IMG/VR virus record: IMGVR_UViG_3300035698_035303
Coordinates: 1-64,000 of that record
Strand: one strand, 5' to 3'
Origin: a virus
DNA: 64,000 nucleotides
Shown piece after piece: positions 37,386 through 63,920 of the stretch. The stretch's first letter is position 1, and the number at the start of each line of letters is the position of its first letter. A program made the position numbers and the translations under genes. The notes under the pieces are model-generated. The model made no database searches. It saw only the letters and a program-made list of their open reading frames with translations, and was not told where the DNA came from.

Positions 37386-40300
37386 ATGGATTACGGACGT
37401 AAAACAAATTTGAATGATGCTGCTATTAACAGAGGTCTATCAGAAAAAATTGATCAAGATATTATGGACCGTAGCGCAAATATTCTTGAAACAGTTGACA
37501 GAAGTAAGCTTACTGTATCTGATATATTGGGGAGAACGAATACTGAACCCCCAGTTGACGAAGGGACGACTCTTCGTAAGATAGTTAAAGAGCTAAGAGG
37601 TAAGAAACATCGCAAATGGGTATCTAAAAACGAAATACGCGAGTATATGCGCGAGAAAATGCCTGACGATGAGACTTTTGATGCTTTTTGGAGCAGTGCA
37701 AAACAATCGAATGCAGGACATCGTAATTATGAATTTGGGAAACGCGGAGACGATGAGATAGTAACAAACGGCAAAAAACGTTATGCCGAGTCAATAGATG
37801 ACCCTAATTGTCATTTTCTACCAGATGACTTAAAATTTAGTCATGGTGACAATCAGGACCTTACTAAGCTTATGGAAGATAACCCAAATATGGGTCTAGG
37901 CTTTTTAGAGGGGTTCGGTGAAAAACCAGTCTTTGCCAAAATTGAGGAAAACAAACGTTTCTCATCCGATGCTGATGTTAACATGATTCTTGAGGGAGTT
38001 GATGAAGGTGCGTATACAAATAAGCAATGGACATTAGCTGCAAAAATGATAGCAGATGCTGCAAAAAATATTGTTAGAGCCTCTGATTGGGTTCAAGTAA
38101 AAGCAGCCGTAAATAAAATTGATGAACCAACCGGAGTTTATAGACATCCCAAACGTCCTAAAGGTTTAGCAAAAGCAATTGACGCTGTTTATAAAATGTC
38201 TAAAGATGGCAAAGATTGGCAGCAAATGAAAGCAAGCGTTATTAAATCATGGAAAGAATTAGACACTGCATATGCAAAAGCTGCTGAGAGAAGTCTTGCT
38301 TTAGAAGGTGATGCCCCTGGCGTTCCTGACGGAACTGGCCCAAGAAGCAAAAAAGGGAATTGCCCAATGAGCGAGTCTGGGCTTTCTTATGAGACATTAG
38401 CCAAAAACATTAAAAACGGTAATATAAAATCTGGAGCTACTATATTTGCTGCGGATAAAGAGTTTAAGGTCAAATCAGCTAGTGTTCAAGGCGATACTGT
38501 TTACATTGAAACAGACACACGTGTTTTTAAAGTTAAAAACGAAAAAGATGGTGATTCTGTTATTACAAAGTTTGATATGTCTGCTAATGAGTCTATAAAT
38601 GAATCAATTTCAGTTGTTGACGAAGCTGGGCTTTCTTATGAGACATTAGCTAAAAATATTAAAAATGATAATATAAAATCTGGAGCCACTATATTTGCTG
38701 GAGATAAAGAATTTAAAGTTAAATCTGCTAGCGTTCAAGGTGATACAGTTTATATTGAAACAGATAAACGTGTTTTTAAAATCAAAAATGAAAAGGATGG
38801 CGATTCTGTTATTACAAAGTTTGATATGGGCGTTGATGAGGCCAAATTTGAATACAATATTCCTCACTTAAATAAAGCCAAAACCCGTAAAGGGCAGATT
38901 ATTCAGGTTGTAACAAAATCTCCTAAAGTCTTTCATTATTGGACTGGTAAAGCGTGGACTAAATCTTTGGATGGAGCCAAAGAGCTTGTATCCGGGCCAG
39001 AAGCTAAAAGTGATCTTAAAAAAGCTCTCGCAAGTTGGGATGTATCAACAGTAGAGAACGTTGATGAATATATAAAGCTTGGTCCTAAAGACAAACGGGT
39101 TATTAAAGACTTCATGGCAGGCAAATCTAGTTCCAGCAAGAATTTAGATACAGACGGCAAAAAACTTGATGGTGTTTGGATGGGTGGAAATAAATTAGCA
39201 ACTCGTGGTTCTGATAAGATGATTTCATTTAGCGATACAGGCGGTAAATCGGCACAGATTATTAAGAATTTTGCAAAGAAACTCAACCCTGCCGTTATTC
39301 ATGAAGATATTGATGAAGCAAATCGTGTGAACACTGACGCATATATGCGCTCCCACGGTAAAAAACCCAAAGGTCGTGGCAGATGGTTGTTCTTCTTCGG
39401 TGAAAAAGCTCACAAAGACTGGCCAAAAAAGACTGACGGATCATTTGCTTCCTCTAACACCACCTTCGGTGATGCTGTAAAGCAAGCAAAAATCGAAGTT
39501 AAAAAACGTGGTTTAAAAGATATTGAAATTATTGTTGGTGAGTCCACAACAGAGAGCGTTGAAGACGCTATTGAATCCTTATCATTATCTTTATTTGGTG
39601 AGGATAGGAATCGCCCTTTTGACCGAATTGTGGATGAGGCCAAAGGTCTTGTTTACACAGTATCATTTGATAGTGATCGTGATTTAGAAAAATTTGAAAA
39701 GAAATATAAGAGTCCTATTGGTGGTGTAACGTGGAAGAAAATTACCACTAAGCCCAGGATTACCCAATCAATCAATGTTTTTTACAAAGGTGGACAGGCT
39801 GGGAAAGAAGAAGGAAGCAAATTCATAGGAAAGATAAAAGACGAATTCACCAGAGTTTTTGTTACTTCCAATAAACGTTCTGATGCTAAGGATGAAGCTA
39901 TTGAATCTTTATCATTATCTTTGTTTGGAGAAGCTAAATATGAGCATCCTCCATCAAATATACATAAGGAACCATTTGGTACTCAGGTTTACTTCGCGAT
40001 TAAACCTCTGGAGAAAACTCTTCCTGAGAAAGATGCATACGCCAGTATAACTAATCAGGATCTTTCGACTAGGAACCCAGAAATTCAAATCGCCTTCTAC
40101 TCTAAGAAGGGTAGGGATTTATTGGGGTGGATTACCTTCAAGGTGTCTTTCTCTGGTAAGAATGTAAAAACCAAAGTTCTTGACACACATAAGTACGGCA
40201 AGGATAACCAAAGGGCATTAACTAAAGAAGTTGAAGACGCCTTGAAAAAAGCTAAGGTTCAACCGTTATCCGAAGACGTTGATGAAGCTGGGTTATTAAG

Positions 40301-41027
40301 AGCTCCCGCACATGTTAAACAAATTCTTGTACAATTAGCTAAAAAAATTAAAGGCGTTAAAATTACGAAATCCAGTCGTGGTAATTACATGTTTGGTGGT
40401 AATAATCTAGCTAAAGGTCCTGCTGAAAAAATTGTTAAAGCCTTGAAAGATTTAGGCAAAACAGGTAGAGTAGCAGAAATAGATGGTAAATTTTTTGCTC
40501 AAACTTCCCTTGGCGAATCTGTAGATGAAGGCAAGAAGCCTACAGGCGCAAAACTTGAAGCTGCAAAAAGATTATTAGCAAGATTCAAAAAAGAAAAAGG
40601 TGATACTGCTGAAGCATCAGCAGACTTTATTAATGCATATATTAAGGGCGATGAAAAGTTTATGCGTCGTATTTTATATGCCCCAGGTAACTCTCGTAGA
40701 GGTGCTTTATATGCCCAGGAACGATTAAGAATGATGACCGAGGATATAAACGATTTACTTGAAGAATTAATGATAATGTGCGAAGATATAGATGATATTT
40801 ATACTATTGAATTTCCAAAAAGTAATCAAGATTCTGACTACTCAAAGATTATAGACTTACTTACAAAACACCCACAAGCAAAAAAGCTTGGCAAAAAAGC
40901 TTGGATCAAAGCTGGCAAGCTTCTTATTAAAGGATTTGATGTCAAAGGATTAACTAGTCTTATTAAAAATCCAGGTATTAATTTAATGAGTAAAATAAAT
41001 CAGACAAAAATAACTTTGTTAAGTTAA
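37386..41027 (+). CDS. Putative internal-head polyprotein with multiple protease sites
   Basis: A 1213-aa, lysine-rich protein made of separate, mostly short alpha/beta segments joined by acidic linkers of the type [V/I]-D-E followed by A or G: after E59, E207, E413, E485, E644, E751, E967 and E1048. Further candidates are LFGE at E739 and E849, and NVDE at E561. This matches the T4 gp21 prohead-protease rule (hydrophobic-x-Glu, then small residue). Two segments are near-identical 67-aa copies, and one 13-aa linker is duplicated. I see no enzyme motif. By analogy with T4 internal proteins it may be packed in the prohead and cut into about ten peptides; it lies between terminase and portal genes. 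A plain multidomain structural protein is the alternative. Confidence 0.55.
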   Translation: MDYGRKTNLNDAAINRGLSEKIDQDIMDRSANILETVDRSKLTVSDILGRTNTEPPVDEGTTLRKIVKELRGKKHRKWVSKNEIREYMREKMPDDETFDAFWSSAKQSNAGHRNYEFGKRGDDEIVTNGKKRYAESIDDPNCHFLPDDLKFSHGDNQDLTKLMEDNPNMGLGFLEGFGEKPVFAKIEENKRFSSDADVNMILEGVDEGAYTNKQWTLAAKMIADAAKNIVRASDWVQVKAAVNKIDEPTGVYRHPKRPKGLAKAIDAVYKMSKDGKDWQQMKASVIKSWKELDTAYAKAAERSLALEGDAPGVPDGTGPRSKKGNCPMSESGLSYETLAKNIKNGNIKSGATIFAADKEFKVKSASVQGDTVYIETDTRVFKVKNEKDGDSVITKFDMSANESINESISVVDEAGLSYETLAKNIKNDNIKSGATIFAGDKEFKVKSASVQGDTVYIETDKRVFKIKNEKDGDSVITKFDMGVDEAKFEYNIPHLNKAKTRKGQIIQVVTKSPKVFHYWTGKAWTKSLDGAKELVSGPEAKSDLKKALASWDVSTVENVDEYIKLGPKDKRVIKDFMAGKSSSSKNLDTDGKKLDGVWMGGNKLATRGSDKMISFSDTGGKSAQIIKNFAKKLNPAVIHEDIDEANRVNTDAYMRSHGKKPKGRGRWLFFFGEKAHKDWPKKTDGSFASSNTTFGDAVKQAKIEVKKRGLKDIEIIVGESTTESVEDAIESLSLSLFGEDRNRPFDRIVDEAKGLVYTVSFDSDRDLEKFEKKYKSPIGGVTWKKITTKPRITQSINVFYKGGQAGKEEGSKFIGKIKDEFTRVFVTSNKRSDAKDEAIESLSLSLFGEAKYEHPPSNIHKEPFGTQVYFAIKPLEKTLPEKDAYASITNQDLSTRNPEIQIAFYSKKGRDLLGWITFKVSFSGKNVKTKVLDTHKYGKDNQRALTKEVEDALKKAKVQPLSEDVDEAGLLRAPAHVKQILVQLAKKIKGVKITKSSRGNYMFGGNNLAKGPAEKIVKALKDLGKTGRVAEIDGKFFAQTSLGESVDEGKKPTGAKLEAAKRLLARFKKEKGDTAEASADFINAYIKGDEKFMRRILYAPGNSRRGALYAQERLRMMTEDINDLLEELMIMCEDIDDIYTIEFPKSNQDSDYSKIIDLLTKHPQAKKLGKKAWIKAGKLLIKGFDVKGLTSLIKNPGINLMSKINQTKITLLS
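38379..38828 (+). repeat. Tandem 67-aa domain duplication in the polyprotein
   Basis: Two in-frame copies of a 201-base unit, 38379-38579 and 38628-38828, both encoding GLSYETLAKNIKN...VITKFDM with few changes. The 48-base spacer encodes a linker with two candidate sites (SINE|S and VVDE|A), and the second copy is followed by GVDE|A. Many differences are at third codon positions, so the copies have been kept under protein-level selection. Confidence 0.85.
39564..39932 (+). repeat. Duplicated linker motif in the polyprotein
   Basis: The 13-residue sequence [D/E]AIESLSLSLFGE is encoded at 39564-39602 and again at 39894-39932. Each copy ends in a Glu that could be a protease site (FGE|D and FGE|A). 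The copies flank one segment of about 98 aa, as expected for a repeated inter-domain processing linker. Confidence 0.8.
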
Positions 41028-48753: not shown

Positions 48754-49599
48754 ATGACAGAACAGCAAAGCATTATTGATTTATTAACGGAAACTCGTGG
48801 GGTTCTATCAGAACTTCACAGGTTAGGTCTCCCAGGGCTTGACCCAAGATTACCACCTGAAATATTGGAACATAATCTTTATACAGACCCAAAAGATCAT
48901 ATTCTCTTATTAGAAGAAACTATGGTCCTTGCTCCGTATTTTGATGTTGAAGTCAATGAGTCAATTGACCCTTATGAACAGGCTATGATATTGATGGAGG
49001 CTAACGGGGATGGACGGCTTCTTATGCGTGGGGTTTTCCAACGCGCTGGGAAGAAAAATCAAAATGGTAGAATATATTCCAACGAACTTTTGCAAAGAGA
49101 AGTTAAAAGGTTGCAAGATTCTATCGATGATAACAGACTTGGTGGTGAATTAGACCATCCACAAAGTGCTAAAATTCGCGTCCCTGTCACAAGTCATTTA
49201 ATAACTAAACTATGGATACCTAACAATTCAGATGAGGTTTATGGGGAGTTAACTCCTACTCACAATTCATCTGGTAGGGATTTGTTTAATTTAATAACTA
49301 AAGACAAAATGAGATTAGGCGTTTCAAGTCGTGGTACTGGAACTCTCAAAGAGACAGACAACGGGCTTCTTGTACAGCCTAATTATAATATGATTACTTT
49401 TGATATTGTTGCGGACCCATCAACTCACGGAGCTTTTCCAACTGAAGTTAACAACAGTAACAAAAAAATCGACAAAAAATCAACAACTGAAGAAAAACAA
49501 GATAATAATGATTCCAGTGTAGAATTACTGGAAATAACAACAGAATTAATTACCCGGATGAAAAACGTATTCGGTCAAAGGCCAGGAGATAAAAAATGA
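48754..49599 (+). CDS. Prohead maturation protease, gp21-like
   Basis: A 281-aa serine protease of the T4 gp21 type that removes the scaffold and trims capsid and internal proteins. The family core is clear: RGVFQRAGKKNQNGRIY, then GGELDHP with His135, SHLITKLW, then LGVSSRGTGTL with Ser191/Ser192, and FDIVADPSTHGAF. The N-terminus has candidate self-cleavage sites at EVNE|S (E69) and LME|A (E82), which would free the core domain. The C-terminal 50 aa are Lys/Asn/Gln-rich and probably removed. It overlaps the scaffold gene as ATGA, as fits their shared role. It is the enzyme expected to act on the leaders described further on. Confidence 0.88.
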   Translation: MTEQQSIIDLLTETRGVLSELHRLGLPGLDPRLPPEILEHNLYTDPKDHILLLEETMVLAPYFDVEVNESIDPYEQAMILMEANGDGRLLMRGVFQRAGKKNQNGRIYSNELLQREVKRLQDSIDDNRLGGELDHPQSAKIRVPVTSHLITKLWIPNNSDEVYGELTPTHNSSGRDLFNLITKDKMRLGVSSRGTGTLKETDNGLLVQPNYNMITFDIVADPSTHGAFPTEVNNSNKKIDKKSTTEEKQDNNDSSVELLEITTELITRMKNVFGQRPGDKK

Positions 49600-50855
49600 A
49601 AAAAGTCTTAGAGAATGCACTTGGAGACGTTATAAACGTTCTTGGAGAAGAAAAAGCTTCACTAGTCGCCTTTGTTAGTGAAAAGGTCAAAGAAGCTGAA
49701 GAAAAAGTCGAAAAGATGAAAGGTGACTATGACGATAAAGTTGCTGAATTAAAAAGTGATAAAGAAAAGGCAGTCAAAGAGGCTGAAGATGAAGATGATG
49801 ACGATAAAGTCAAAGAGGCTGAAGAAGAATTTGAAAAGAAAATTGAAAAAGTTAAAGAGTCTTTTGATGCAAAAATTGCTGAAATGAAAGACGACTTTGA
49901 AAATAAAATTAAAGATGAAGCTGACGATGATGACGATGATGACGATGATGACGATGATGACGATGAAGAAACTGACGAAGGTGAACTACCTCCGGCTTTG
50001 AAAAAAGCAATAGAGTTAAAGAAAGCCATCACAAAAAGTAAAAATGAAGCTGACGATGATGACGATGAAGAAACTGATGAAGGTGAATTGCCACCAGCTT
50101 TGAAAAAAGCAATAGCGAAAAAGAAAGCCGAATCAGGAGACGATGAATGTAAAGAATGTGATGACAAAGAAGAAAAAATTGAAAAGCTTGAAAAAGAGGC
50201 TGTAGAAAAAGAAGACGAAATTGAAAAGATTAAAGAGGGATTAGCAGAAAAGGTTAATTCATTTTTAACAAACATCCTCCCTCGTCTACACAACATTGTT
50301 AAAGAAGAAAAAACATTATCTCCAGACAATATGAATGCTGAGAATATTCTCGAAAGCATTAAAACATTGGTTGGAGAAGGTAATTTACCATCCTCGAGCC
50401 TTTCTGAGGAAGTTAATAAAGATGAGTTCAGTGAAAAAATTGCTGAATTTGAAACTAAGTTCGAAGAACTCACAGAAACACAAGAAGATCTCAAGGGGAG
50501 ATTAAGGCGTAAATCTAACAAGCTTAATGAGGGCTTGACTGATAACGCACAACTCAATGCGCAGTTGAAAGTGTGGGAGCTTTGTGCAGATGATCCGGAT
50601 CGTGATTTCATTATGACACGACTTGCCGAATGCGCAACCGTTGATGATGTGGAAGAACAGTTCCCGATTCTCAAGGAAAAAATTAGACGTGATGCTGAAG
50701 AGGATCTTATTGAAGAATTTGGGGACCCCAATTTTGAGGGACCTGGTTCTAACATCAATGAGGAAGTTCCAACAAAGCCAAGTGATTTATCACCTTTGAA
50801 TGAAAGTGACAAAAATAGATTGGCTGAACTTGCTGGGATTATGCCTATTAAGTAA
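49596..50855 (+). CDS. Major scaffold / prohead core protein, gp22-like
   Basis: A 419-aa, extremely acidic coiled-coil protein with the order and character of T4 gp22, which forms the core inside the prohead and is degraded by the protease. Residues 20-105 are Glu/Lys coiled coil. Residues 107-180 hold two tandem copies of an Asp-run followed by EETDEGELPPALKKAI. The C-terminal 100 residues are more globular. Candidate protease sites are VLGE|E (E18), TLVGE|G and others. It is flanked by protease and major capsid genes. The long opposite-strand open frame here is only a consequence of Asp codons. Confidence 0.85.
   Translation: MKKVLENALGDVINVLGEEKASLVAFVSEKVKEAEEKVEKMKGDYDDKVAELKSDKEKAVKEAEDEDDDDKVKEAEEEFEKKIEKVKESFDAKIAEMKDDFENKIKDEADDDDDDDDDDDDDDEETDEGELPPALKKAIELKKAITKSKNEADDDDDEETDEGELPPALKKAIAKKKAESGDDECKECDDKEEKIEKLEKEAVEKEDEIEKIKEGLAEKVNSFLTNILPRLHNIVKEEKTLSPDNMNAENILESIKTLVGEGNLPSSSLSEEVNKDEFSEKIAEFETKFEELTETQEDLKGRLRRKSNKLNEGLTDNAQLNAQLKVWELCADDPDRDFIMTRLAECATVDDVEEQFPILKEKIRRDAEEDLIEEFGDPNFEGPGSNINEEVPTKPSDLSPLNESDKNRLAELAGIMPIK
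49917..50130 (+). repeat. Tandem acidic repeat with variable Asp tract in scaffold gene
   Basis: Two in-frame copies (from 49917 and from 50046) encode EADDDD...EETDEGELPPALKKAI. They differ mainly in the length of a GAT/GAC run: about 14 Asp codons in the first and 5 in the second. Such trinucleotide runs can change length by slippage without breaking the frame. Confidence 0.85.
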
Positions 50856-50897: not shown

Positions 50898-52739
50898 ATG
50901 AGTAACACAAACGCATATCGCCAGGTTGGTCGTAGACTAATCGAAAGATGGTATCCTCTATTAGAGGGTCTCAGGGGCGAAGAAAACATCATTAACATGG
51001 CAATACTCTTGGAAAATGAGTGGCGTGAGGGTGGAAACCTTCTCCCAGAATCTGACCAAATTATTGCTGAGTTCACCGCTTCAACTTTGGCTGGTCCTTC
51101 TGGACAGACCCCACAGGTCGCAACATTCAGACATTACCTAATGCCTTTGATTCGAAGAGTATATCCTAACCTATTTACTAACCAACTTGTTGGCGTTCAG
51201 CCAATGACTGGTCCATCAGCTCAGATTTTCTATTTGAAATACTTTTATTCTGGTATCTCAAACATGCAAGACCCTTGGGGAACAACTCCAACAAGTAAGG
51301 GTGGAACTGCTCCTGGTACTGAGTATGGTAACTTTAGTGGAGATTCATGGTTCGTCGATCCATATTACTCCATGCAAACAGTTCGTCGTGAACCTATAGC
51401 TGCATTTGCAGGATCAGATTTTTCTGGTGCGCCAGCCACAGTAACTCATGATATGGTTGCTGCTAACGGTCAGCCTCCTGTTTTTGATAATACTTCAAAA
51501 TGGTATTTCCTTGCAGCAGATGCTAATACATACGCAGTTGCTACAACTGTAACACTTATTGAGTTAACTGGCTTTGTAAATGGTGTAACCCCAGGTTCCG
51601 CTATTACAGCTACATCAATTGCTACTATCAAAGGTACAACCGCATTTACTAATACAGTAACAGGTTGGATTGATAGAACAGGTGCTTCTAGCGCAAATCA
51701 GTGGAACATTGTTACAAGTAATGTTGGTTCCCATGATTTCTTCTTATCCGCCACAGAATCTGCTGCAGCTGTAACTGCTGGATCTGATTACTTGGGTGTT
51801 AATACTGTTACTTATGACTTCAATATGGAAAACAGACCAGAAATGCCTGAACTTTCCTTAGAAATCGCAAGCGATACAGTAGGCGTTCAGACTCGTAAAT
51901 TGCGCACCGTATGGTCCGTTGAGTCTAGCCAAGATATGAAAGCTATGCATCAAATTGATGCTGAAAAAGAGCTTATTAGTCTTCTAGCTGCTGAACTAGC
52001 TGCTGAGATTGATCGTGAAACTTTGAATAACCTTATCATGAATGCTGGACAAAGACGCGATTACAACTATTCCCATCCTGGAATCGTTGGTGGTTTTGCT
52101 CAAGCAAATGGTGCTGGTTACTTGAACTGGGATCAGCAAGCAAGTATTCCTGCTGCCGGTGCTGGAGCATGGTTCCCCGTACCAGGATCTGGTAATTACG
52201 ATGATCGTAACAAATCATTGATGTATCAAACAATTGAAATGGCTAATGACATTTATCGCCAATCGCTTCGTGGTTCTGCTAACTGGATTGTTACTTCCCC
52301 AAGTATCGCCAGCAAGTTTGAAGCAATGAGTGAATTCGAATCCACTGCAACTTCTGAGACTCTATACAATATTGGTATTCAGGAAAGTGGCATCTTGGCA
52401 AGTAAGTTTAAGTTGATTAAAGACCCTCTATTCCCTGAAGATTTAATTCTCATGGGTTATAAAGGCCCTTCATTTATGGACAGTGGTTACTTCTATTGCC
52501 CATACGTACCAATTCAGCTTACTCCAACAGTTGTTGACCCACGTACCTTCAATCCTGTAAAAGGTGTAATGACTCGTTACGGCAAATTGATGGTTGAAAA
52601 TGGGGAGAGAATGTACGGACTTATTAAGGTTGACAATCTTAATTCAGTTGGTAGTTCAACTCCTGCAGGGTTCCCAATCCAGACCAGCTCGACTGTAAGT
52701 GGCAGCGATATGATCAGTGGCGATACGAACCTAGTATAA
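50898..52739 (+). CDS. Major capsid protein, gp23-like
   Basis: A 613-aa T4-type major capsid protein with HK97 fold. The family stretch is clear around residues 80-115: FRHYLMPLIRRVYPNLFTNQ, LVGVQPMTGPSAQIFYLK. Further matches are ENRPEMPELSLEIASDTVGV with TRKLRTVWSVE, and PSIASKFEAM near the C-terminus. The N-terminal 58 residues are helical and end QIIAE|F, the likely protease cut (T4 gp23 loses 65 residues). Residues about 190-300 hold a beta-rich insertion. The gene has a good ribosome-binding site (TTAGGAG) and ends at a strong hairpin terminator, fitting very high expression. Confidence 0.92.
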   Translation: MSNTNAYRQVGRRLIERWYPLLEGLRGEENIINMAILLENEWREGGNLLPESDQIIAEFTASTLAGPSGQTPQVATFRHYLMPLIRRVYPNLFTNQLVGVQPMTGPSAQIFYLKYFYSGISNMQDPWGTTPTSKGGTAPGTEYGNFSGDSWFVDPYYSMQTVRREPIAAFAGSDFSGAPATVTHDMVAANGQPPVFDNTSKWYFLAADANTYAVATTVTLIELTGFVNGVTPGSAITATSIATIKGTTAFTNTVTGWIDRTGASSANQWNIVTSNVGSHDFFLSATESAAAVTAGSDYLGVNTVTYDFNMENRPEMPELSLEIASDTVGVQTRKLRTVWSVESSQDMKAMHQIDAEKELISLLAAELAAEIDRETLNNLIMNAGQRRDYNYSHPGIVGGFAQANGAGYLNWDQQASIPAAGAGAWFPVPGSGNYDDRNKSLMYQTIEMANDIYRQSLRGSANWIVTSPSIASKFEAMSEFESTATSETLYNIGIQESGILASKFKLIKDPLFPEDLILMGYKGPSFMDSGYFYCPYVPIQLTPTVVDPRTFNPVKGVMTRYGKLMVENGERMYGLIKVDNLNSVGSSTPAGFPIQTSSTVSGSDMISGDTNLV

Positions 52740-55219: not shown

Positions 55220-55711
55220 ATGAAAACTAGTAAAAAATTGAATGAAATTATTGACAGATTTGAGAAAGAACTTGATGAGTTTATTGGAATTAACGAGGCG
55301 CAGGAGTTAACTCCTACTATAATGAAAAAAATAGCCACAAATCTTAGCAAAGTAATAAAAGATCAGAATCCCTGGCGTATTGCAAAATTTAAGGTTACTA
55401 AGGATGGGGATACTTTTAAGGCTGTATCTGACGATTATGCAGATAAATACAATAAAATGTTTGTGGACAAAGAAATAGCTAAATACCCATCAAATGCCGA
55501 ATATTTAATGCGACAAAAAAAGTATTATCATGAAACCAAAAAAGTCATTCGCAAAGGTGATGAACGTAATTATTCTTATGTAGTTGACTTAGTACAAGTA
55601 ATTGTAAATAAAAACGGGACCCATCGGGATAAATCAGCATTTATTGTATTTGATTCAAAAGGAAACATGAAATCTGTTAAGCAATATAGCCCTGAGCCTT
55701 TTGGGGTTTAA
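55220..55711 (+). CDS. Putative capsid-cargo protein with long leader (163 aa)
   Basis: A 163-aa protein. The leader (26 aa) starts MKTSKKLNEIIDRFEKELDE and ends FIGINE|A, a prohead-protease-type site. It is the long variant of the leader family and has the same length as that of the next gene. The payload is a lysine-rich alpha/beta protein (ATNLSKVIKDQNPWRIAKFK) similar in layout to the payload at 55742, so the two are probably paralogues. No enzyme motif. Likely packed into the head and trimmed there. Confidence 0.55.
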   Translation: MKTSKKLNEIIDRFEKELDEFIGINEAQELTPTIMKKIATNLSKVIKDQNPWRIAKFKVTKDGDTFKAVSDDYADKYNKMFVDKEIAKYPSNAEYLMRQKKYYHETKKVIRKGDERNYSYVVDLVQVIVNKNGTHRDKSAFIVFDSKGNMKSVKQYSPEPFGV

Positions 55712-55741: not shown

Positions 55742-56203
55742 ATGAAAAACAACATAACATTAGATGAAATTATTGATAGGTTTGGGGCTGATGTTGGCGA
55801 TAACTTTAAAGTTAATGAAGCGAACGAGCCATATAATACCACCGACCCAAAAGCAGTAGTAACAAATATGCCCCTTAGTGAAATGGCTAAAAATCTTTCA
55901 AAGACAGTCTCAAAAATGATTGGTATGCCTGTGACGTTCAAATTAACTGTTAAGAATAATATTATTAACATAGAGTCAAACGACTTGGCACCAAAAGTTA
56001 AACCCAAATTATTTAAACGGTTAATAATTAAGAGTGACGGTGGTAGTGTTAGGCCTCACGAACAAGACAAAGTATTATGCTATCTTGCCCAGTTGTATTA
56101 TCGGTGGGATCAATACGGTGGCGGTTCTAATGGGTTAAACATTGGTCTTTTTCAGATTAATCAAGAGGGATTCATTATTGGTTATAGAGAAGATTTAAAG
56201 TAA
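55742..56203 (+). CDS. Putative capsid-cargo protein with long leader (153 aa)
   Basis: A 153-aa protein. The 26-residue leader starts MKNNITLDEIIDRFGADVGD and ends FKVNE|A. The payload begins with a helix (MAKNLSKTVSKM), then alternating strands (VTFKLTVKNNIINIES), as in the gene before it. No known domain or catalytic residues. AAAGGA precedes the ATG. Its function inside the virion or after injection is unknown. Confidence 0.55.
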   Translation: MKNNITLDEIIDRFGADVGDNFKVNEANEPYNTTDPKAVVTNMPLSEMAKNLSKTVSKMIGMPVTFKLTVKNNIINIESNDLAPKVKPKLFKRLIIKSDGGSVRPHEQDKVLCYLAQLYYRWDQYGGGSNGLNIGLFQINQEGFIIGYREDLK

Positions 56204-56215: not shown

Positions 56216-56491
56216 ATGAAAGACAATAGAACATTAAACGAAGTGACTGAAAATTTTGGGATGAGTGAAGGCGTGGACAAGATTTCTATACCTGGTACGG
56301 ATTTTGTTTTTACTATTCCTCTGTTTTATAAGGATAAACCAGCTAAAAAGAAATCTGGGCATGTCCAACATAAATCGGGTCATCCACGCGGCGAATGGTT
56401 TGTTAACAAAAAAGGTAAAGTGACTTTCTTAGATGATTGGGATAAAGAGAAGAAAATGGCTGCATTCATAACGAAGGAAATAGGGCTATGA
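56216..56491 (+). CDS. Putative capsid-cargo protein with standard leader (91 aa)
   Basis: A 91-aa protein with leader MKDNRTLNEVTENFGMSE|G. The payload is a small basic beta-rich protein with a His/Lys/Gly segment (KKKSGHVQHKSGHPRGEWFV) that could bind metal or nucleic acid. The stop overlaps the ferritin gene as ATGA, so the two should be made together. No family is recognised. Confidence 0.55.
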   Translation: MKDNRTLNEVTENFGMSEGVDKISIPGTDFVFTIPLFYKDKPAKKKSGHVQHKSGHPRGEWFVNKKGKVTFLDDWDKEKKMAAFITKEIGL

Positions 56492-57108
56492 AAGACAATA
56501 GAGACCTAAACGAAATTGCTGGTAATTTTGGAATCAATGAATCTGAATCTGAAATTGATACCGATGAATGCGAAATTGATACCGATGATTTGTCTGAATC
56601 AATTATAGAGGAAGCTTCAACAACTCCAATGCCTGATGACGTATTTAAAGCTTTAAATGAACAGGTTAAGAATGAGTTTGAAGCGTTTTATGCATATTAC
56701 GGTATGGCTAATTCTATGGACTCTATTGGATTTAAGGGTATGGCTTGTTGGCTTCGTAAGTCAGCAAAAGAGGAATTAAACCATGCATATAAAGTTAATG
56801 ATTATATCCTTGAGCGTGGCAAAGATGTGAAGCTAATTCCTATTCAACCGTCAAAAGAAAAATGGAATACCCCAAAAGCAGCTTTTGAGTCAGCAAACAA
56901 GCATGAAATTAGTGTTACTGCTAATTACAATAACTTGAAAAAATTAGCTGAAAGTGGCGGCGATCATCAAACTTGTGAATTCATTAACTTCTTCCTTCGT
57001 GAGCAAACAGAGGAAGAAGACAAAACTTTTGAAATTTGCCAAAAGCTTGATAAAGCTGGCAATGATCCAGCAGCTCTTTTGCAAATTGATAATCATCTTG
57101 GTTGTTAA
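56488..57108 (+). CDS. Ferritin with a capsid-cargo leader
   Basis: A 206-aa protein. Residues 52-204 match bacterial non-haem ferritin (FtnA type), which oxidises Fe(II) and stores it in a 24-subunit shell. All ferroxidase ligands align: E63 (LNEQVKNEFEAF), E96 and H99 (KSAKEELNHA), E140 (KHE), Q173 and E176 (REQTEEE). Unlike cellular ferritins it starts with the shared leader, MKDNRDLNEIAGNFGINE|S, followed by an acidic linker with a repeated EIDTD and a second candidate site, IIEE|A (after E42), just before the ferritin fold. I infer targeting to the prohead and trimming to mature ferritin. It overlaps both neighbours by one to four bases. Confidence 0.85.
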   Translation: MKDNRDLNEIAGNFGINESESEIDTDECEIDTDDLSESIIEEASTTPMPDDVFKALNEQVKNEFEAFYAYYGMANSMDSIGFKGMACWLRKSAKEELNHAYKVNDYILERGKDVKLIPIQPSKEKWNTPKAAFESANKHEISVTANYNNLKKLAESGGDHQTCEFINFFLREQTEEEDKTFEICQKLDKAGNDPAALLQIDNHLGC

Positions 57109-57440
57109 TGAAATTAACAAACATCATATTATACGAAGAGCCAGATGTTTGTATGCCCATGATGGAGTTTGTAGAAGTTTGGGTTGATGAAAATGGTGAT
57201 GAAATCAATGAAATATCACCTATAAGAAAACGTGTAAGAAAAAAACGTAAATGGAAAATAAGGTATTTTTGCCCTAAAGGGTATAGACATAAATCCCCAC
57301 CAGGCAAGCCCAGACAGAAGGGGAAATGCGTTAAAATACCTCCTGCGGTACTTGCTAAGATGAAAAGAAACGCACGCCGTGGGGCTAAAATACGAGGCAA
57401 AAAAGCAGCCAGAACAAGAAAAAGACTTTATGGTAAATGA
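57108..57440 (+). CDS. Putative capsid-cargo protein, strongly basic (110 aa)
   Basis: A 110-aa protein from the ATG at 57108 (TAATG overlap with ferritin). It begins MKLTNIILYE|E, a short second-type leader, then has an acidic piece ending EINE|I (E35). What follows is extremely basic: KRVRKKRKWK, CPKGYRHKSPPGKPRQKGKC, KRNARRGAKIRGKK. The Cys residues (in FCPKG and GKC) may bind metal. After cleavage this would be a DNA-binding peptide, like basic internal proteins packed with phage DNA. It sits directly behind ferritin. Confidence 0.55.
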   Translation: MKLTNIILYEEPDVCMPMMEFVEVWVDENGDEINEISPIRKRVRKKRKWKIRYFCPKGYRHKSPPGKPRQKGKCVKIPPAVLAKMKRNARRGAKIRGKKAARTRKRLYGK

Positions 57441-57452
57441 TAAGGATTAATT

Positions 57453-58142
57453 ATGATTAAATTAAGACCAGCGCCTCTCCCAACAATAACTGTAAAAGAT
57501 GTTTTGAAAGATTTTTCGGATATAGGACCACAAACCAAAGATTTTGATTTTGGTAATCCACTTGGGTATCTTAGGGAAGATGACGACGATGACGAAGAAG
57601 AAACCACGGTTGGAGACGCTGACCCTGAGGACTTTCCGGATGATACAGTTGTCCCAAAACACTTATCTATTGAGGGAGCAAGTAGAATAATGAAGCTTAT
57701 TCGTGCTCACCAAAAAGAAATGCATTCCCCATCCGAAGTAGGAGAGTTTAAGTATGAATTACGCGGCAAAGATGTAACTTTTCGCGTAAAAGATTTTATG
57801 GAGGGTGTCATTGTTACAATAAATGACCCCGATGTATCCACCGCTAAAACGTTTAAGTTTCCTTTGGATTGGCAAGGTGGTAAGGTTATGGACTCAATTA
57901 ATACAGCTATAGCGGAATTAGAACTGGGGGAAGCAACCAATAAATTTACTACTGATGATGTTGGTTTCGATATTCGTGATATGGCGACTGATTTAATTTG
58001 GCTTGGGAAGAAAGGCAGTGAAATTGCCCGATTCCTTGATGGGGATAAAAATTTTCCCCAGATGAAAATTCTTCTGAAACAAGCGAATGATCAAGCTAAC
58101 AGAATGATGAAGCAAATACCAAAGATTTTAAAAAGGATGTGA
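57453..58142 (+). CDS. Hypothetical head-region protein with protease-type sites (229 aa)
   Basis: A 229-aa protein with an N-terminal region (MIKLRPAPLPTITVKDVLKD) unlike the leader family, then an acidic tract (REDDDDDEEETT) and an alpha/beta segment. A candidate site at LELGE|A (E160) would separate a helical C-terminal domain of about 69 aa. No known domain is visible. AAGGA precedes the ATG. It may be a two-part internal protein. Confidence 0.5.
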   Translation: MIKLRPAPLPTITVKDVLKDFSDIGPQTKDFDFGNPLGYLREDDDDDEEETTVGDADPEDFPDDTVVPKHLSIEGASRIMKLIRAHQKEMHSPSEVGEFKYELRGKDVTFRVKDFMEGVIVTINDPDVSTAKTFKFPLDWQGGKVMDSINTAIAELELGEATNKFTTDDVGFDIRDMATDLIWLGKKGSEIARFLDGDKNFPQMKILLKQANDQANRMMKQIPKILKRM

Positions 58143-58146
58143 TATA

Positions 58147-58401
58147 ATGGATAAAAAAACAATTGAAGCATTTAAGGTTTTTATGATTGGCGAAGCTAAT
58201 ATTGAAAATACTGATGATTTCATAGACCGTGCTATGGATGTATTCCAAGCTAACATTAAGTTGGGCAAGGAAGGGTCGAAGGCTCTCCGATTAGTTGATT
58301 ATGATAAGAATATCGATAAAATGGCTTATTCCCTGAAACAAGCTAAAAAAGAAATGTTGAGCACTATTGCAATAATCGATAAAGCATTAAAGATTAAGTA
58401 A
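58147..58401 (+). CDS. Putative capsid-cargo protein, small helical (84 aa)
   Basis: An 84-aa protein. The leader-like start MDKKTIEAFKVFMIGE|A has the expected hydrophobic-x-Glu-Ala ending. The payload is entirely helical and charged. The stop of the previous gene lies only four bases upstream, so they are probably translationally coupled. No family is recognised. Confidence 0.5.
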   Translation: MDKKTIEAFKVFMIGEANIENTDDFIDRAMDVFQANIKLGKEGSKALRLVDYDKNIDKMAYSLKQAKKEMLSTIAIIDKALKIK

Positions 58402-58436
58402 CCGGAAATACAATAATATTCCTGTGGATAAAGAAC

Positions 58437-58751
58437 ATGAAAGATAACCGATTATTAAATGAAATTGCTGAGGCTTTCGGTCTTGACCCAAAAGACGAAA
58501 AGATTAAAACAGTAAAAGATCATATAAAACCTCTTTTAGAAGTTTTAGAAAAAAGGTTTAAATTAAAAGTAAAATATATTGACGTTCATAATGCAGCTAT
58601 AAGTATTTTTGAAGGAAGAAAAAAAGTTGGTGGTTTTCAATTAGGCATCATGAATAGAACGCCTATTCACAATTATTCAGGTATAGCAGGAGAATATTCT
58701 ACTAGTTTAGAATATGCTTATAGAATATACAAAAAGAAAAATAAATTATAA
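58437..58751 (+). CDS. Leader-family protein lacking the usual cleavage site (104 aa)
   Basis: A 104-aa protein whose first 15 residues are the family leader (MKDNRLLNEIAEAFG), but the following sequence is LDPKDEK instead of [IV]NE-A. The payload has an alpha/beta pattern (FKLKVKYIDVHNAAISIFEG). If packed it may keep its leader. It ends in TAATG, overlapping the neck-like gene downstream. No known domain. Confidence 0.5.
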   Translation: MKDNRLLNEIAEAFGLDPKDEKIKTVKDHIKPLLEVLEKRFKLKVKYIDVHNAAISIFEGRKKVGGFQLGIMNRTPIHNYSGIAGEYSTSLEYAYRIYKKKNKL

Positions 58752-59464
58752 TGGGTAAAGGCATTTACAAAGAAATAACAGATGATGACAAGAAGCTTGA
58801 TAAGCAAAAGCCTTCTATATCAAACTTCGGTGGTCAGCATTTCCCTGATAAGGTAAATTACTATCGCCCTGCATTTGAGGGATCAGGTATTGCAGATGGG
58901 ACATTTCGTTTATTTGATATGGCTAATCCTGATGATGCTTTGTTTGATGCAGTAGAGCAAGAGCAAATTGCTATTACATCGCCGCCAATTCTTTTATATA
59001 GATTAAATACCGATCGTACTGAAGTTGATGAAGTAACTGGTGAATCGCAAATACGTTTTTATAACAAATTTGATAGGATTGTTGGTAATTATGAGGCACC
59101 GGATGTCGAACAACAATTATCTCGTTTCGGTATTGCGGAACAAGAAGAAATTGAAATTATTTTTAATCTTAATTATTTGTTTGTAGAAGTTGGTGGACAA
59201 ATAGATGAAGGCGATTTAATCAGAACTGTTGACGGCAAGATGTGGGAAGTAATCGATAGTGTTGTTGGGGATGAAGCTCTTTGGACTAAGGGACATAACA
59301 AGTGCGTTCTTAAACGTGTTCAGGGAGAGGGTTATTTAATCCCTGATGATAAAAACCCTGGAAAATACATTGATATAAGTGATAGCCCTAATACCGGAAG
59401 TCGAACAGGTCGTGATAAAAAAGGCGAAGATAGCGATTTAGGCAGTGGTCATGAACCACTTTAA
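58751..59464 (+). CDS. Putative neck protein (gp14-like) inside the cargo cassette
   Basis: A 237-aa protein without a cargo leader. Residues about 60-200 (ITSPPILLYRLNTDRTEVDE, then IRFYNKFDRIVGNYE and GDLIRTVDGKMWEVIDSVVG) resemble neck or head-closure proteins of T4-like phages in being beta-rich with a 'PP[IV]xxYR' entry strand. The C-terminal 40 residues are disordered (SPNTGSRTGRDKKGEDSD). It is the one probable structural gene among cargo genes. The gp14 comparison is tentative. Confidence 0.45.
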   Translation: MGKGIYKEITDDDKKLDKQKPSISNFGGQHFPDKVNYYRPAFEGSGIADGTFRLFDMANPDDALFDAVEQEQIAITSPPILLYRLNTDRTEVDEVTGESQIRFYNKFDRIVGNYEAPDVEQQLSRFGIAEQEEIEIIFNLNYLFVEVGGQIDEGDLIRTVDGKMWEVIDSVVGDEALWTKGHNKCVLKRVQGEGYLIPDDKNPGKYIDISDSPNTGSRTGRDKKGEDSDLGSGHEPL

Positions 59465-59473
59465 GGAGATAAT

Positions 59474-59947
59474 ATGAAAGACATTAGAACATTAAACGAA
59501 GTTGCTGAACAATTTGGTATCAATGAAGCTGATGATATTAAGGAAATGGGAGCTAAAGAATTTATGACAAGTATTCGCGATGCTTTGGCAAAAGGAAATA
59601 TGCCTAGAATTGCTAATACTTCTGGAGCAGCCATTCGTGGTTGGACAAATTCAATAGGCTCTACTGGTTTTAGCGTTAAGGATAAGGGTAAAGATATTGA
59701 TATTCATATTGTAATAAGTGGGAAAAAAGCTGGGATTAAATATAAAAGAATTTATGACAGGGATGGAAGTGAGTACGATGAACCCGCAAATCAGGATAGT
59801 CTCCATCCAAAGATTAAACAAATTATAAATAAACTTGGAATTCAAGTTAAGAATATTAGGTCAAGTGGCCATTCAGGGTCTTTTGATGATGATGTGACAT
59901 ATAATATTATTGCCAAACGACCTAAATGGCTTATTTCAAAAAATTAA
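59474..59947 (+). CDS. Putative capsid-cargo protein (157 aa)
   Basis: A 157-aa protein with leader MKDIRTLNEVAEQFGINE|A. The payload is lysine/glycine-rich alpha/beta (SGAAIRGWTNSIGSTGFSV; KDIDIHIVISGKKAG). The leader is nearly identical at DNA level to that of the next gene, although the payloads are unrelated, which indicates exchange of payloads behind a fixed leader. No known domain. AAGGAG precedes the ATG. Confidence 0.55.
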   Translation: MKDIRTLNEVAEQFGINEADDIKEMGAKEFMTSIRDALAKGNMPRIANTSGAAIRGWTNSIGSTGFSVKDKGKDIDIHIVISGKKAGIKYKRIYDRDGSEYDEPANQDSLHPKIKQIINKLGIQVKNIRSSGHSGSFDDDVTYNIIAKRPKWLISKN

Positions 59948-59956
59948 GGGCACAGA

Positions 59957-60343
59957 ATGAAAGACATCAGAACATTAAACGAAGTTGCTGAACAATTTGG
60001 TGCTGTTAATGAGGATTCTCTTTTTGATGCTGAATCAGCTGATGAATGGGAAAATAAAATAGAAAAAGGTATAAAAGTCCCTTTTATTAACGTTGGCAAG
60101 TCTACTCTGGGTGGCCCTAAAAATATTGCTCTAATGATAAGGCTATCACTTGATCCACAAAAAGACTGGAGTAATAATATATTTCATAATTCAAGATATG
60201 CTCAATTGAGTTTATCTAATGATGGCAAACTTGAAATGTTTTCTAGCTCATATAATATAAAGAATATGAGGAAAACAAAGGTAAAGACAGCAGATGACGC
60301 AATAAAGAAAATAAATGTTTGGGCTAAAAAGGAGAATTCATGA
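59957..60343 (+). CDS. Putative capsid-cargo protein (128 aa)
   Basis: A 128-aa protein with leader MKDIRTLNEVAEQFGAVNE|D, one residue longer than the standard. The payload begins acidic (SLFDAESADEWENKIEKG) and continues as an alpha/beta protein with Asn/Ser-rich strands. No motif. It overlaps the next gene as ATGA. Confidence 0.55.
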   Translation: MKDIRTLNEVAEQFGAVNEDSLFDAESADEWENKIEKGIKVPFINVGKSTLGGPKNIALMIRLSLDPQKDWSNNIFHNSRYAQLSLSNDGKLEMFSSSYNIKNMRKTKVKTADDAIKKINVWAKKENS

Positions 60344-61002
60344 AAGATATTAGAACATTAAATGAAATAGCTGAACGATTTAATATTAACGAAGGTAAAT
60401 TTGATAAATTTCGTCGTAGTAATTCAATTCCTACTAATGCGGGAGATTGGACTAAATTAGCTAAACAACTTGACGCTGGCATTAATGAATTGGATGATAT
60501 TGCAATTAGTTTTGGTAGTTTTAAAGATTTCGAAGCTTTATATGCAGCTTATAAAAGCCCGTTTGATATATATAATGAGTCTTTAGCTATAACTAATAAA
60601 CTTATTAAAATAATAAAACAAGTTGTCAGTAGTGCAAGTAATATGAGTAAAGGCCAATTTTACTCATTAATTAAAAAATTGGAAGAAGATACTGAGGATA
60701 CTAATGTTGACGAAGGTATGTACCAAAGATTTCGTCGTGGTAATTCAATTCCTACCAATGCTGGTTACGGATGGGGAGCCCTCTGTAAGAAATTAGATGC
60801 TGGAATTCTTGAGCTTGATGCTATCGCTGATGATCTTGGTTATGAAGACTTTGAAGATCTAGATGCAAGCTATAGTAATCCTGCTTATATTCTGAGTTCG
60901 TCTTTGAAAAGTAGATTTATTAAATCTATTAAAAAAGTTGTTAATAAAGGGAATAACATGAGCCCTTCTAAACTTGAGAAAATGATTATAGACTTAAAAT
61001 AG
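60340..61002 (+). CDS. Putative capsid-cargo protein made of two duplicated units (220 aa)
   Basis: A 220-aa protein with leader MKDIRTLNEIAERFNINE|G. Two copies of one helical payload follow: residues 19-125 (GKFDKFRRSNSIPTNAG...) and 126-220 (GMYQRFRRGNSIPTNAG...). The second copy is preceded by NVDE|G at exactly the place where the first is preceded by INE|G. This repeated site is internal support for protease processing into two similar mature proteins. FRR and RFRR give each a basic start. Function unknown. Confidence 0.6.
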   Translation: MKDIRTLNEIAERFNINEGKFDKFRRSNSIPTNAGDWTKLAKQLDAGINELDDIAISFGSFKDFEALYAAYKSPFDIYNESLAITNKLIKIIKQVVSSASNMSKGQFYSLIKKLEEDTEDTNVDEGMYQRFRRGNSIPTNAGYGWGALCKKLDAGILELDAIADDLGYEDFEDLDASYSNPAYILSSSLKSRFIKSIKKVVNKGNNMSPSKLEKMIIDLK

Positions 61003-61013
61003 GAATATTATTA

Positions 61014-62360
61014 ATGAATTTAAAACAAATATTGGTAGAAGGTCCAACAGGCGTCCCATATACTGAGAAAACATTTAAACAAACTATGAATAGTGTTTTG
61101 ACTAAAGAAGGTCTTGGTAGTGAACGTGGAGCATTGCTTACTACTAAAAATGGTATATTTGTGGAAGTTAGACCTTGTTATGAAGATGGTAAGGCTAATG
61201 TTAAAGTATGGGCTTTTAACCCTGATAAACCTAATTCAGATTATCTTGGACGTTGGAAACATCAAAAGTCATTTAATAATATTAAAGAGGCTTACGCATT
61301 TGCCCAATTACATGTTGAACAAAACATATTAGAAGCAAAAGAAGAAGCTGGTAAATTGGCCCCTAAAGCCAAAAAAGCCTTAGCACTTTGGAAAAAAGAG
61401 TACAAAGAGGCTGAGACCCCTATCAAGAAAAAAGGTGGTAAAACATCATGGGGTCGATCTTATTTCTATAAGACATCAATACAAAAACAAATTTCTGATG
61501 GGTTCAAACAAGAGTTTGATGATATAAATAAATATTATTTCAAAGGCTCTGGCTTTAAAGTAGTTCCTGATGGGTCTCCTTGGGATGATTTTAAATCATG
61601 GCCAAAAACAAGCTATTATTGGGTACCGTTTAAAATTGTATCAGAGAATGGAATATCTGAGGTAAAAAAAAATCCATCCAAGGGAACTTGGAATATGAAA
61701 GGTAATGGGTATTCCGTTGTAGCTTATGTAAGTCAGAATAACGATGGTGAAATGAAATCTTCTTCTATGATGCTTACTCCGGGTGAAGGAGCAACGGAGT
61801 TTAATATTTGGAACGATGAGAAATCGTCTCAAAAAGGAGAGTTCTGGTGGGATAAGAATGATATTCAACGAGGTATCAGAAATCTTAATGCTAAGAAACC
61901 AAATTTTGTAGAGACTAAAGCTATGACATCTGATATGAATAAGTTAGTCAAAATTATTGGTTCTGCTTTTAATGCCTATAAAGTTGATGCTGTGAAAAAA
62001 TCCAAGGTTTCTGAGGGTACTGCTAGAAAAGAAATGGACCCAATTAATAAACAGCCTTTGAAGAATATGATTTATAAAAAGATAACCAAAATTACCAAAG
62101 GCATTTACAAAGATCAATATTGGAATGGTGTTAATAAGATTTGGGATGTATTTAATGATTTGGGATTGGACTGGAATATCCAGAAGGCAGAATACGATCA
62201 CAAGAATTCGCCACCAACTTATAAGATTTGGTACATAGAAATTAACTTTACTAACAAGGCTGGGAAACCCCAGAAGATTTTTGGGAATGTCACGGCGGCA
62301 GGAGCTGGGACAGTCAAGGACCCGCTTGATGCTTATGATGTAAACCTAGTAATGGGATAA
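61014..62360 (+). CDS. Putative large capsid-cargo protein (448 aa)
   Basis: A 448-aa protein with a short second-type leader, MNLKQILVE|G. A further candidate site, NILE|A (E107), would split an N-terminal domain of about 98 aa from a 341-aa remainder. The larger part is rich in Lys, Trp, Tyr and Asn (YYWVPFKIVSENG, GEFWWDKNDIQRGIRNL) and has no recognised domain. It is the largest payload in the cassette and could be an injected enzyme or inhibitor, but no catalytic motif is seen. Confidence 0.5.
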   Translation: MNLKQILVEGPTGVPYTEKTFKQTMNSVLTKEGLGSERGALLTTKNGIFVEVRPCYEDGKANVKVWAFNPDKPNSDYLGRWKHQKSFNNIKEAYAFAQLHVEQNILEAKEEAGKLAPKAKKALALWKKEYKEAETPIKKKGGKTSWGRSYFYKTSIQKQISDGFKQEFDDINKYYFKGSGFKVVPDGSPWDDFKSWPKTSYYWVPFKIVSENGISEVKKNPSKGTWNMKGNGYSVVAYVSQNNDGEMKSSSMMLTPGEGATEFNIWNDEKSSQKGEFWWDKNDIQRGIRNLNAKKPNFVETKAMTSDMNKLVKIIGSAFNAYKVDAVKKSKVSEGTARKEMDPINKQPLKNMIYKKITKITKGIYKDQYWNGVNKIWDVFNDLGLDWNIQKAEYDHKNSPPTYKIWYIEINFTNKAGKPQKIFGNVTAAGAGTVKDPLDAYDVNLVMG

Positions 62361-62397
62361 TTTAAAGTTACCCGCAATATTTAAAGAGGATAATATT

Positions 62398-62604: not shown

Positions 62605-62630
62605 TTTAATCTCCATTTTAAGGGGAGTTA

Positions 62631-63149
62631 ATGAAAGACAATAGATGTTTAAATGAAGTCGCTGAGTTATTTGGGGTCAATGAGGCTTTGAAGACACCAG
62701 CGATGATGAAAATTGAATTTGATATTTTTGTTAGCTCTGACCAAATGGGTTATTACAGGAATCAAGCCGCAGATGACATAGCTGGCTCAGGCGGTTACAG
62801 CATAAGATCAACCAAGGACCGTAAATATACCGTTGAATTCTTGACAAAAGACGAAAATAAATTTTTACAAGCCTTCAAGAAAACTAAATCTAATGACAAG
62901 GTTATCAAGATTCATAAGTCAAAACCAAGCCCATTAAAAAGAGAAAGTCTCAATTTCAATTATATAAAAGACGAAAAACAATTAAAAGCAATTGAATCTG
63001 ACTTGAAAAAGTCAGGTGCCGTAAAAATTAAAAGGACTGTTAATTGGGACAAAGGTGAGGCATATTTTTATTTTGATTGCGTGGGATTACCTGATGTTTG
63101 GAGAGCTATGCTTAAAACTAAATCAGGTAGGTATATAGACGAGGAATAG
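62631..63149 (+). CDS. Putative capsid-cargo protein (172 aa)
   Basis: A 172-aa protein with leader MKDNRCLNEVAELFGVNE|A. The payload is alpha/beta with two similar halves (MMKIEFDIFVSSDQMGYYR and LNFNYIKDEKQLKAIESDLK), possibly two ferredoxin-like folds. No catalytic motif. AAGGGGAG precedes the ATG. Confidence 0.55.
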   Translation: MKDNRCLNEVAELFGVNEALKTPAMMKIEFDIFVSSDQMGYYRNQAADDIAGSGGYSIRSTKDRKYTVEFLTKDENKFLQAFKKTKSNDKVIKIHKSKPSPLKRESLNFNYIKDEKQLKAIESDLKKSGAVKIKRTVNWDKGEAYFYFDCVGLPDVWRAMLKTKSGRYIDEE

Positions 63150-63159: not shown

Positions 63160-63567
63160 ATGAATTTAACACAACTTCTTCTTGAATCCCCTATGACGGT
63201 CTATCAACTTCGTAAAAATAGCAAATCCATGCTTAAAGATACTACTCTGGAGTATGTTAAGGAAAGACGTGGCAAAGATAAGGTACAAGGTCCTTTTAGA
63301 GAGTTCTCTTTTAAAGCTGGCAAAAAAGATTATAAAACACGTGTTAGGGTATTTGGAGAACAATCATCAAGAAGTCCGGTATGGGTCCATTGTACATGCC
63401 CTAACTTTAGATATCAATGGGATTGGGTTTTAACTCAAAAAGAAAGTAGTACTCTTTTTAAAACTAAGGACAAACAGCCAAATGTTCGCAACCCTAAGAA
63501 GAATAAAAGTGTATGCAAGCATGTTGCCAGCGCCCTTGATTGGTTGAAAAAGGATAGAGGAATATGA
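63160..63567 (+). CDS. Putative capsid-cargo protein with SWIM zinc-finger motif (135 aa)
   Basis: A 135-aa protein with a short leader, MNLTQLLLE|S. Residues 74-125 fit the SWIM zinc-finger pattern CxC...CxH: C78 and C80 in VWVHCTCPNFRYQWDWVL, and C119 and H121 in KSVCKHVASAL. SWIM domains bind DNA or proteins. The rest is lysine-rich. A small SWIM protein behind a cargo leader would be carried with the DNA into the host. It overlaps the next gene as ATGA. Confidence 0.6.
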   Translation: MNLTQLLLESPMTVYQLRKNSKSMLKDTTLEYVKERRGKDKVQGPFREFSFKAGKKDYKTRVRVFGEQSSRSPVWVHCTCPNFRYQWDWVLTQKESSTLFKTKDKQPNVRNPKKNKSVCKHVASALDWLKKDRGI

Positions 63568-63920
63568 AAGATAACAGAACATTGAACGAAGTGGCTGAAC
63601 GATTTGGTATCAATGAGGCTAAAGAAGAAAGAGAAATTAGTCCAGAAGCCGAAAAGGTTTATAAGGTACTGATTAATAATGCTAAAGAGGGTTACAGGAT
63701 TATCCATAAGGGTAAAACAATTTGGGGTGGTTTGGGCAATCGGGCTGGTCTACACAGCTATGCAGATACCATTATCGGTGATAAATGGAGGAAGTCTGGC
63801 CCTCGTTTTGAAAAGAAACTAAGGAAACTTACTGGCGATTTTGAATTACATGATTATCGATCTATCAGTAGAGATAAGGGTCGCTGGGTTAAGATTAAAA
63901 CTTTTAAAGTAACTGCATGA
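63564..63920 (+). CDS. Putative capsid-cargo protein (118 aa)
   Basis: A 118-aa protein with the clearest standard leader, MKDNRTLNEVAERFGINE|A. The payload is basic, with helix-strand pattern (ISPEAEKVYKVLINNAKEGY; GDKWRKSGPRFEKKLRKLTG). It overlaps the SWIM gene as ATGA. No domain is recognised. Confidence 0.55.
   Translation: MKDNRTLNEVAERFGINEAKEEREISPEAEKVYKVLINNAKEGYRIIHKGKTIWGGLGNRAGLHSYADTIIGDKWRKSGPRFEKKLRKLTGDFELHDYRSISRDKGRWVKIKTFKVTA

Follow-up and report, generated by a model that had tools for sequence, protein, structure and literature searches.

In phage T4, internal proteins reach the scaffold core by means of propeptides of 10-19 residues, of which the first ten are enough in IPIII, and the gp21 protease cuts after L/I-X-E (PMC9026906). 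Foreign proteins enter T4 heads via the same internal-protein address (PMC3012670), and two of the natural cargo proteins, IPI and Alt, function in the host (PMC9026906, PMC3012670). In encapsulins, an HK97-fold shell is loaded via a short terminal peptide with iron-oxidising cargo of the ferritin family, such as FLP or M. tuberculosis BfrB (PMC7355545). With regard to ferritins of phages, a single claim was found in the open-access literature, gp217 of a Vi01-like phage, which was called a 'ferritin' by structure prediction, was detected by mass spectrometry and was proposed to be part of a tail entry system (PMC10892097). No earlier report of a ferritin packed in a virus head was found in the open-access literature, and one may exist in subscription journals. 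To our knowledge, Alt and the IPI inhibitor are among the few natural cargo proteins for which an enzymatic role can be recognised.

In this study, we analyzed a stretch of 64,000 nucleotides (hereafter the window; positions 1 to 64,000 of IMG/VR virus record IMGVR_UViG_3300035698_035303) from a large uncultured phage, which contains a gene for a leader-tagged ferritin of 206 aa (56488..57108, +) near phage head genes. We consider it quite probable that this gene makes a competent ferritin with an 18-residue capsid-targeting propeptide, which would be loaded into the prohead, clipped and kept with the packaged DNA. Like T4 IPI, IPII, IPIII and Alt, the predicted product has a short N-terminal propeptide that is common to unrelated cargo and carries L/I-X-E at its end, and the genome likewise combines a gp21/gp23 head module with a variable set of cargo genes. 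Unlike the T4 capsid-targeting sequence (CTS), however, the leader is 18 residues long and unrelated in sequence, and the cargo differs from that of T4 in being a ferritin, acidic and presumably cage-forming, with a probable cargo polyprotein in addition. The mechanism would be of a known kind, that of the T4 internal proteins, and our searches found no precedent for the cargo. In contrast with encapsulins, the shell is the DNA-packaging gp23 capsid of a phage, the presumed binding partner of the peptide, which has a protease motif, is the scaffold, and the ferritin is of the classical five-helix type rather than the encapsulated-ferritin type. An encapsulin cargo, whose terminal loading peptide docks to the shell of a compartment free of DNA, was rejected because a protease motif closes the leader and the gp23 shell is encoded beside terminase, portal and tail genes, as in a DNA-packaging phage. 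The Vi01-like gp217 can be set beside the window ferritin by description: both are phage-encoded, gp217 having been assigned by fold modelling only.

The ferritin, its active site and the head genes

The ferritin ORF matched PF00210 in a profile search (4.2e-34), and it also matched the ferritin of Thermotoga maritima (TM1128; PDB 1vlg, 1z4a; 2.8e-36, 45% identity). Fold, ferroxidase centre and site C are common to the two proteins, whereas the cellular T. maritima ferritin has neither leader nor linker. When aligned with E. coli FtnA (28% identity), residues E63, E96, H99, E140, Q173 and E176 of the window ferritin corresponded to E17, E50, H53, E94, Q127 and E130 in FtnA numbering. Also kept were Y70, the conserved tyrosine, and E95, E172 and E175 of site C, and the ten centre positions were identical in 79-80 of 80 comparison ferritins from bacterial and archaeal genomes.

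The ferritin domain (residues 48-206; 56629..57105, +) comprises helices A-E with a complete ferroxidase centre and site C. AlphaFold predicted helices with high confidence at residues 50-79, 83-109, 129-156, 160-190 and 194-204, and mostly disorder at residues 1-38; in a Foldseek comparison, the model matched T. maritima ferritin with a TM score of 0.93-0.95 by target length. The five-helix A-E fold, the intra-subunit ferroxidase ligands, the conserved Tyr and site C are those of a classical ferritin (FTN/FtnA). Judged from sequence and model, the ORF is a classical five-helix ferritin, which is probably catalytically competent and presumably forms a cage of 24 subunits. These results bear out an earlier note, made from the letters of the window, which had described an FtnA-type ferritin of 206 aa with all six named ligands; its coordinates and residues were correct, and the structure prediction that it had proposed as a check returned the ferritin fold. 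A Dps identity was rejected, since the E helix (194-204) is present and the ferroxidase ligands are intra-subunit (Dps has no E helix and an inter-subunit site), and an encapsulated-ferritin identity was rejected on fold.

Leader and fold are separated by an acidic linker (residues 19-42; 56542..56613, +) of net charge -12, whose end forms a possible second site, IIEE|A. The computed charge of the mature ferritin would be -18 after the first cut and -6 after the second, and nearly all other cargo is basic. Thus, the acidic mature ferritin does not appear to be a typical DNA-contacting internal protein, and direct DNA binding is unlikely. Immediately 3' of the ferritin, a strongly basic protein (57105-57440, +; net charge +23) is a candidate DNA-binding head protein.

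As in phages with T4-type CTS cargo, the genome that encodes the ferritin also encodes a protease of the gp21 family and a capsid protein of the gp23 family. The prohead maturation protease (gp21 / S77 family; 48754..49599, +) matched PF03420 (6.7e-14) and phrog_207 (2.3e-41), and the major capsid protein (gp23 family; 50898..52739, +) matched PF07068 (4.6e-76) and phrog_138 (7.2e-74). Between these genes lies that of an acidic, coiled-coil protein (49596..50855, +), a probable gp22-like scaffold by position and composition, for which profile searches gave no family match. The terminase (35668-37383) lies upstream of the leader ORFs described below. The portal ORF (42991-46524, +) has an HNH insertion, seen as an in-frame interruption at about residues 383-818 with HNH-endonuclease matches and intein-like ends. 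The T4 late promoter motif (TATAAATA) occurred 14 times versus 8.6 expected, with no clear enrichment.

The shared leader, its proposed cut site and the probable cargo islands

The first 18 codons of the ferritin gene (56488..56541, +) encode the leader MKDNRDLNEIAGNFGINE, which is predicted to be disordered and ends in a gp21-type L/I-X-E motif, INE|S, at residue 18. Eight ORFs within 56216-63920 start with variants of MKD[NI]RxLNE[VI]..., and longer variants were found in two more, so that the leader is common to 8 ORFs by a strict and 10 by a loose definition. All of them are co-directional and lie 3' of the gp21-family protease, the probable scaffold and the gp23 capsid gene. The two longer variants (55220..55711, +, ...FIGINE|A; 55742..56203, +, ...FKVNE|A) are followed by an ORF of 91 aa (56216..56491, +; FGMSE|G) directly 5' of the ferritin, the ATG of which overlaps its stop codon. 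The others encode proteins of 104 aa (58437..58751, +; no E at position 18), 157 aa (59474..59947, +; FGINE|A), 128 aa (59957..60343, +; FGAVNE|D), 220 aa (60340..61002, +), 172 aa (62631..63149, +; FGVNE|A) and 118 aa (63564..63920, +; FGINE|A). A gp21-type motif closes the leader in most of these ORFs.

Over the 53 non-redundant ORFs on the + strand of the window, we observed 41 pairs of similar N-termini, versus a mean of 0.15 and a maximum of 2 after shuffling each N-terminus. Full-length comparison of the leader proteins placed the similarity mainly between residue 1 and about residue 20, and no pair was similar at E<=0.1 once the first 20 residues had been removed. As in T4-type CTS cargo, an N-terminus of about 10-20 aa is common to otherwise unrelated proteins. 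Amino acid identity within the leader was 0.71, nucleotide identity of the 30 nt upstream and of the downstream stretch was 0.30-0.32, and identical leader residues used the same codon in 215 of 329 cases. Since the codons differ and the flanking nucleotide identity is low, it is the leader peptide, not the DNA, that has been conserved. The ferritin's own copy, with differing codons, retains those peptide positions that are conserved, among them the terminal INE|S. The leader that had been assigned to the ferritin before is real in view of the pair count (41 versus at most 2 in shuffles), and its INE|S falls where the other leaders end.

Cut sites were scored as [LIVM]xE|[AGS] (hxE|A/G/S). The head region (proteins from 46548 onwards, leader sites included) contained 37 motifs versus 15.8 expected, and the tail region 31 versus 29.7. 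In three independent duplications, a domain copy begins exactly at the proposed scissile bond. In the 220-aa protein, the first tandem copy begins where the leader stops, at E18|G19, and the second begins at E125|G126. A 229-aa protein (57453..58142, +) has, after LGE160|A161, a C-terminal domain that forms the body of the next ORF (84 aa; 58147..58401, +), where it follows a short N-terminus ending in IGE16|A17. Tandem repeats starting at MSE330|S331 and VDE413|A414 were found in a probable cargo polyprotein of 1213 aa (37386..41027, +), with 13 motifs versus 3.9 expected; this ORF resembles a head-cargo polyprotein in that its tandem modules lie between sites such as VDE|A and MSE|S. As judged from these sequences, the E|A/G/S bond is treated by evolution as a module boundary in all three duplications, and such domain-boundary evidence offers a simple genome-only route to head cargo in uncultured giant phages. 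The P1' residue of the ferritin site, S, is rare among the sites here, A or G being commoner. With regard to the second site proposed earlier, IIEE|A, the motif is present at residue 42; it was rejected as independent evidence because such a motif appears in 25% of random shuffles of the acidic stretch, which is no better than chance.

Among relatives, gp23 identity to the window was 65% for L006, 63% for L115 and 61% for L116. In L115, the homolog of the window gene 54768 lies right next to that of 58751, which in turn adjoins that of 63160; in the window, the first interval comprises 3.5 kb with the ferritin and other leader ORFs, and the second 3.7 kb, in which most of the further ORFs have the leader or a short N-terminus ending in E. 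Because the flanking homologs adjoin in L115, the leader ORFs, including the ferritin, form two inserted islands, and the T4 internal-protein model predicts such insertions of cargo genes into a neck cluster that is conserved. On three ORFs, L115 carries a leader family of its own (M..xLNEVFGNxYADLxxDE), further distinct families were found in LR756508, L095 and L112, and L036 has eight T4-like leaders versus 0.12 expected. The strict pattern of the window leader was found in no other IMG/VR contig. A relaxed pattern gave one match in each of 21 contigs; since these were single matches inside one of three unrelated conserved proteins, they were rejected as chance.

The gp21 and gp23 genes, the leader set in the head cluster, the domain boundaries and the leader families of relatives all point to a head address resembling that of the T4 internal proteins, as the earlier note had suggested. 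That comparison held in function and gene setting and failed in sequence: similarity to the T4 CTS (MKTYQEF-like; aromatic-x-E-aromatic-aliphatic) was absent from the leader, and the window was not among the loci with at least three such leaders. By analogy, the leader would belong with the T4 capsid-targeting sequences in function, though not in sequence.

Probable head loading and competing readings

Because its leader is common to at least seven unrelated neighbours beside head genes, the phage probably packs the ferritin in its own head. During prohead assembly, the leader would bind the scaffold core and so bring the ferritin inside the shell, with the acidic linker spacing the leader off the ferritin surface. 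The N-terminus of a ferritin faces the cage exterior, and thus up to 24 leaders, spaced by the linker, could be displayed. The gp21-type protease would then cut after E18, and perhaps after E42, releasing a mature ferritin (peptides after clipping would start with SESEIDTDEC... or ASTTPMPDDVFK) that would stay in the head with the packaged DNA. The likeliest role would be to oxidise and sequester Fe(II), consuming peroxide or O2 near the genome, which may limit Fenton damage within particles or while they are assembled.

A variant of this head-loading reading, in which subunits are ejected with the DNA and work in the newly infected cell, for example to hold free iron during an oxidative defence response, appears unlikely. 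The 24-subunit ferritin cage is about 12 nm wide, probably too wide for a contractile tail tube of typical dimensions, and ejection would thus need disassembly into dimers or monomers; besides, a few ejected subunits would be trivial beside host ferritin. The closest solved relatives, the T. maritima and A. fulgidus ferritins, are known to disassemble in a salt-dependent manner, which would permit passage as dimers. Precedent for such a role is provided by T4 IPI and Alt, both of which act in the host (PMC9026906, PMC3012670). Since an assembled cage should not exit through the tail, protection of the DNA from Fenton chemistry is favored over delivery. Three functions had been suggested earlier (iron binding next to the DNA, protection against oxidative damage and delivery of an iron buffer to the host), and on size grounds delivery of an assembled cage is the least likely of them.

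There is a small chance that the gene encodes an ordinary auxiliary ferritin, expressed late to manage host iron in the infected cell, with the leader as a passive recombination remnant of the cassette. Islands of such a kind recombine, the acidic linker could be merely tolerated, and stand-alone leaderless ferritins occur in the phage contigs L032, L033, L036 and L051. However, the peptide positions of the leader, INE|S included, are kept though the codons differ, and the gene lies in a run of leader ORFs, its start codon sharing nucleotides with the stop codon of the one before it. Moreover, the MKD leader was found in 0 of the 80 bacterial and archaeal ferritins, the median N-terminal extension of which was 2 residues. 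Finally, it is very improbable that the leader is some other localisation or regulatory peptide of a late operon with no head address: it is not homologous in sequence to the T4 CTS and recurs in no IMG/VR relative, but the gp21-type protease encoded here has a specificity that fits both the leader end and the domain boundaries, all leader ORFs lie among head and neck genes, and analogous leader families occur in relatives with the same head module.

Ferritins and leader-borne enzymes in other phages

A single-sequence ferritin search of IMG/VR returned no relative. The alignment-based search of the same database gave mostly E. coli-type ferritins on isolate contigs, which are probably host flank, plus three metagenomic phage contigs, all with head genes within a few kb and none with the MKD leader. 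On L033 the ferritin lies between the portal and a 608-aa ORF, on L032 it lies upstream of terminase and portal, and on L010 (5644-7581, +; also L198, 7644-9581) a ferritin domain is found within a 645-aa phage protein. A maturation protease with an intein is encoded a few kb downstream of the latter. Two gp23 contigs, L036 (2239-2664, -) and L051 (830-1303, -), encode leaderless ferritin-like proteins (PF00210, 2.5e-19 and 1e-14, respectively). Considering L032, L033, L010/L198, L036 and L051, ferritin near phage head genes is recurrent, and the targeted form is single so far. The search for leader-bearing ferritins in other phages that had been proposed earlier gave none in IMG/VR, and the leader-ferritin fusion is present in one genome only. 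Since the ferritins on other phage contigs are without this leader, ferritin can serve phages without targeting. Six INPHARED ferritin matches were rejected as apparent bacterial contamination, being on faecal scaffolds that were short and unverified or on assembly nodes with the label Staphylococcus phage; in the two examined in full, the neighbours were cellular-looking.

A broader reading, to which we give tentative and less than even credence, is that the virions are iron-handling particles, DNA-filled capsids with leader-loaded ferritin cages for iron oxidation and storage, and the viral counterpart of encapsulin-ferritin compartments, ferritin having been recruited separately by a leader (the window), by fusion (L010) and as a stand-alone protein (L032, L033, L036 and L051). 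An address-tagged ferritin amounts to a concrete, testable claim of iron management inside a virus particle and bears on the iron content of environmental virus particles. Given the parallel with encapsulins, in which a phage-type shell often holds ferritin-like cargo, the question of a phage origin of HK97-shell iron storage becomes approachable.

Enzymes of other kinds were also found behind leaders. In L006, an AstE/AspA-type enzyme (14589-15671, +) follows an N-terminal TVDTLLREWGVE motif, and similar [TS]VDDLL motifs occur on three more ORFs of this contig. T4-like capsid-targeting motifs precede an NADPH-dependent FMN reductase in the gp23 phage L036 (17589-18458, -) and a poly(A)-polymerase/tRNA-nucleotidyltransferase-type protein with an HD domain in the gp23 phage L050 (18418-20601, -). 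The 484-kb phage genome LR756508 (L005, 432-41432) has at least 18 ORFs near head genes with MKxxExKLRxIIKEEI-like N-termini. It also has repeated MRLKEILLE-type proteins; these were suspected by eye to be ADP-ribosyltransferases, an assignment rejected as unsupported by Pfam. Finally, the window ferritin and those of L010 and L033 all matched the unannotated PHROG phrog_16594, which could be labelled as ferritin.
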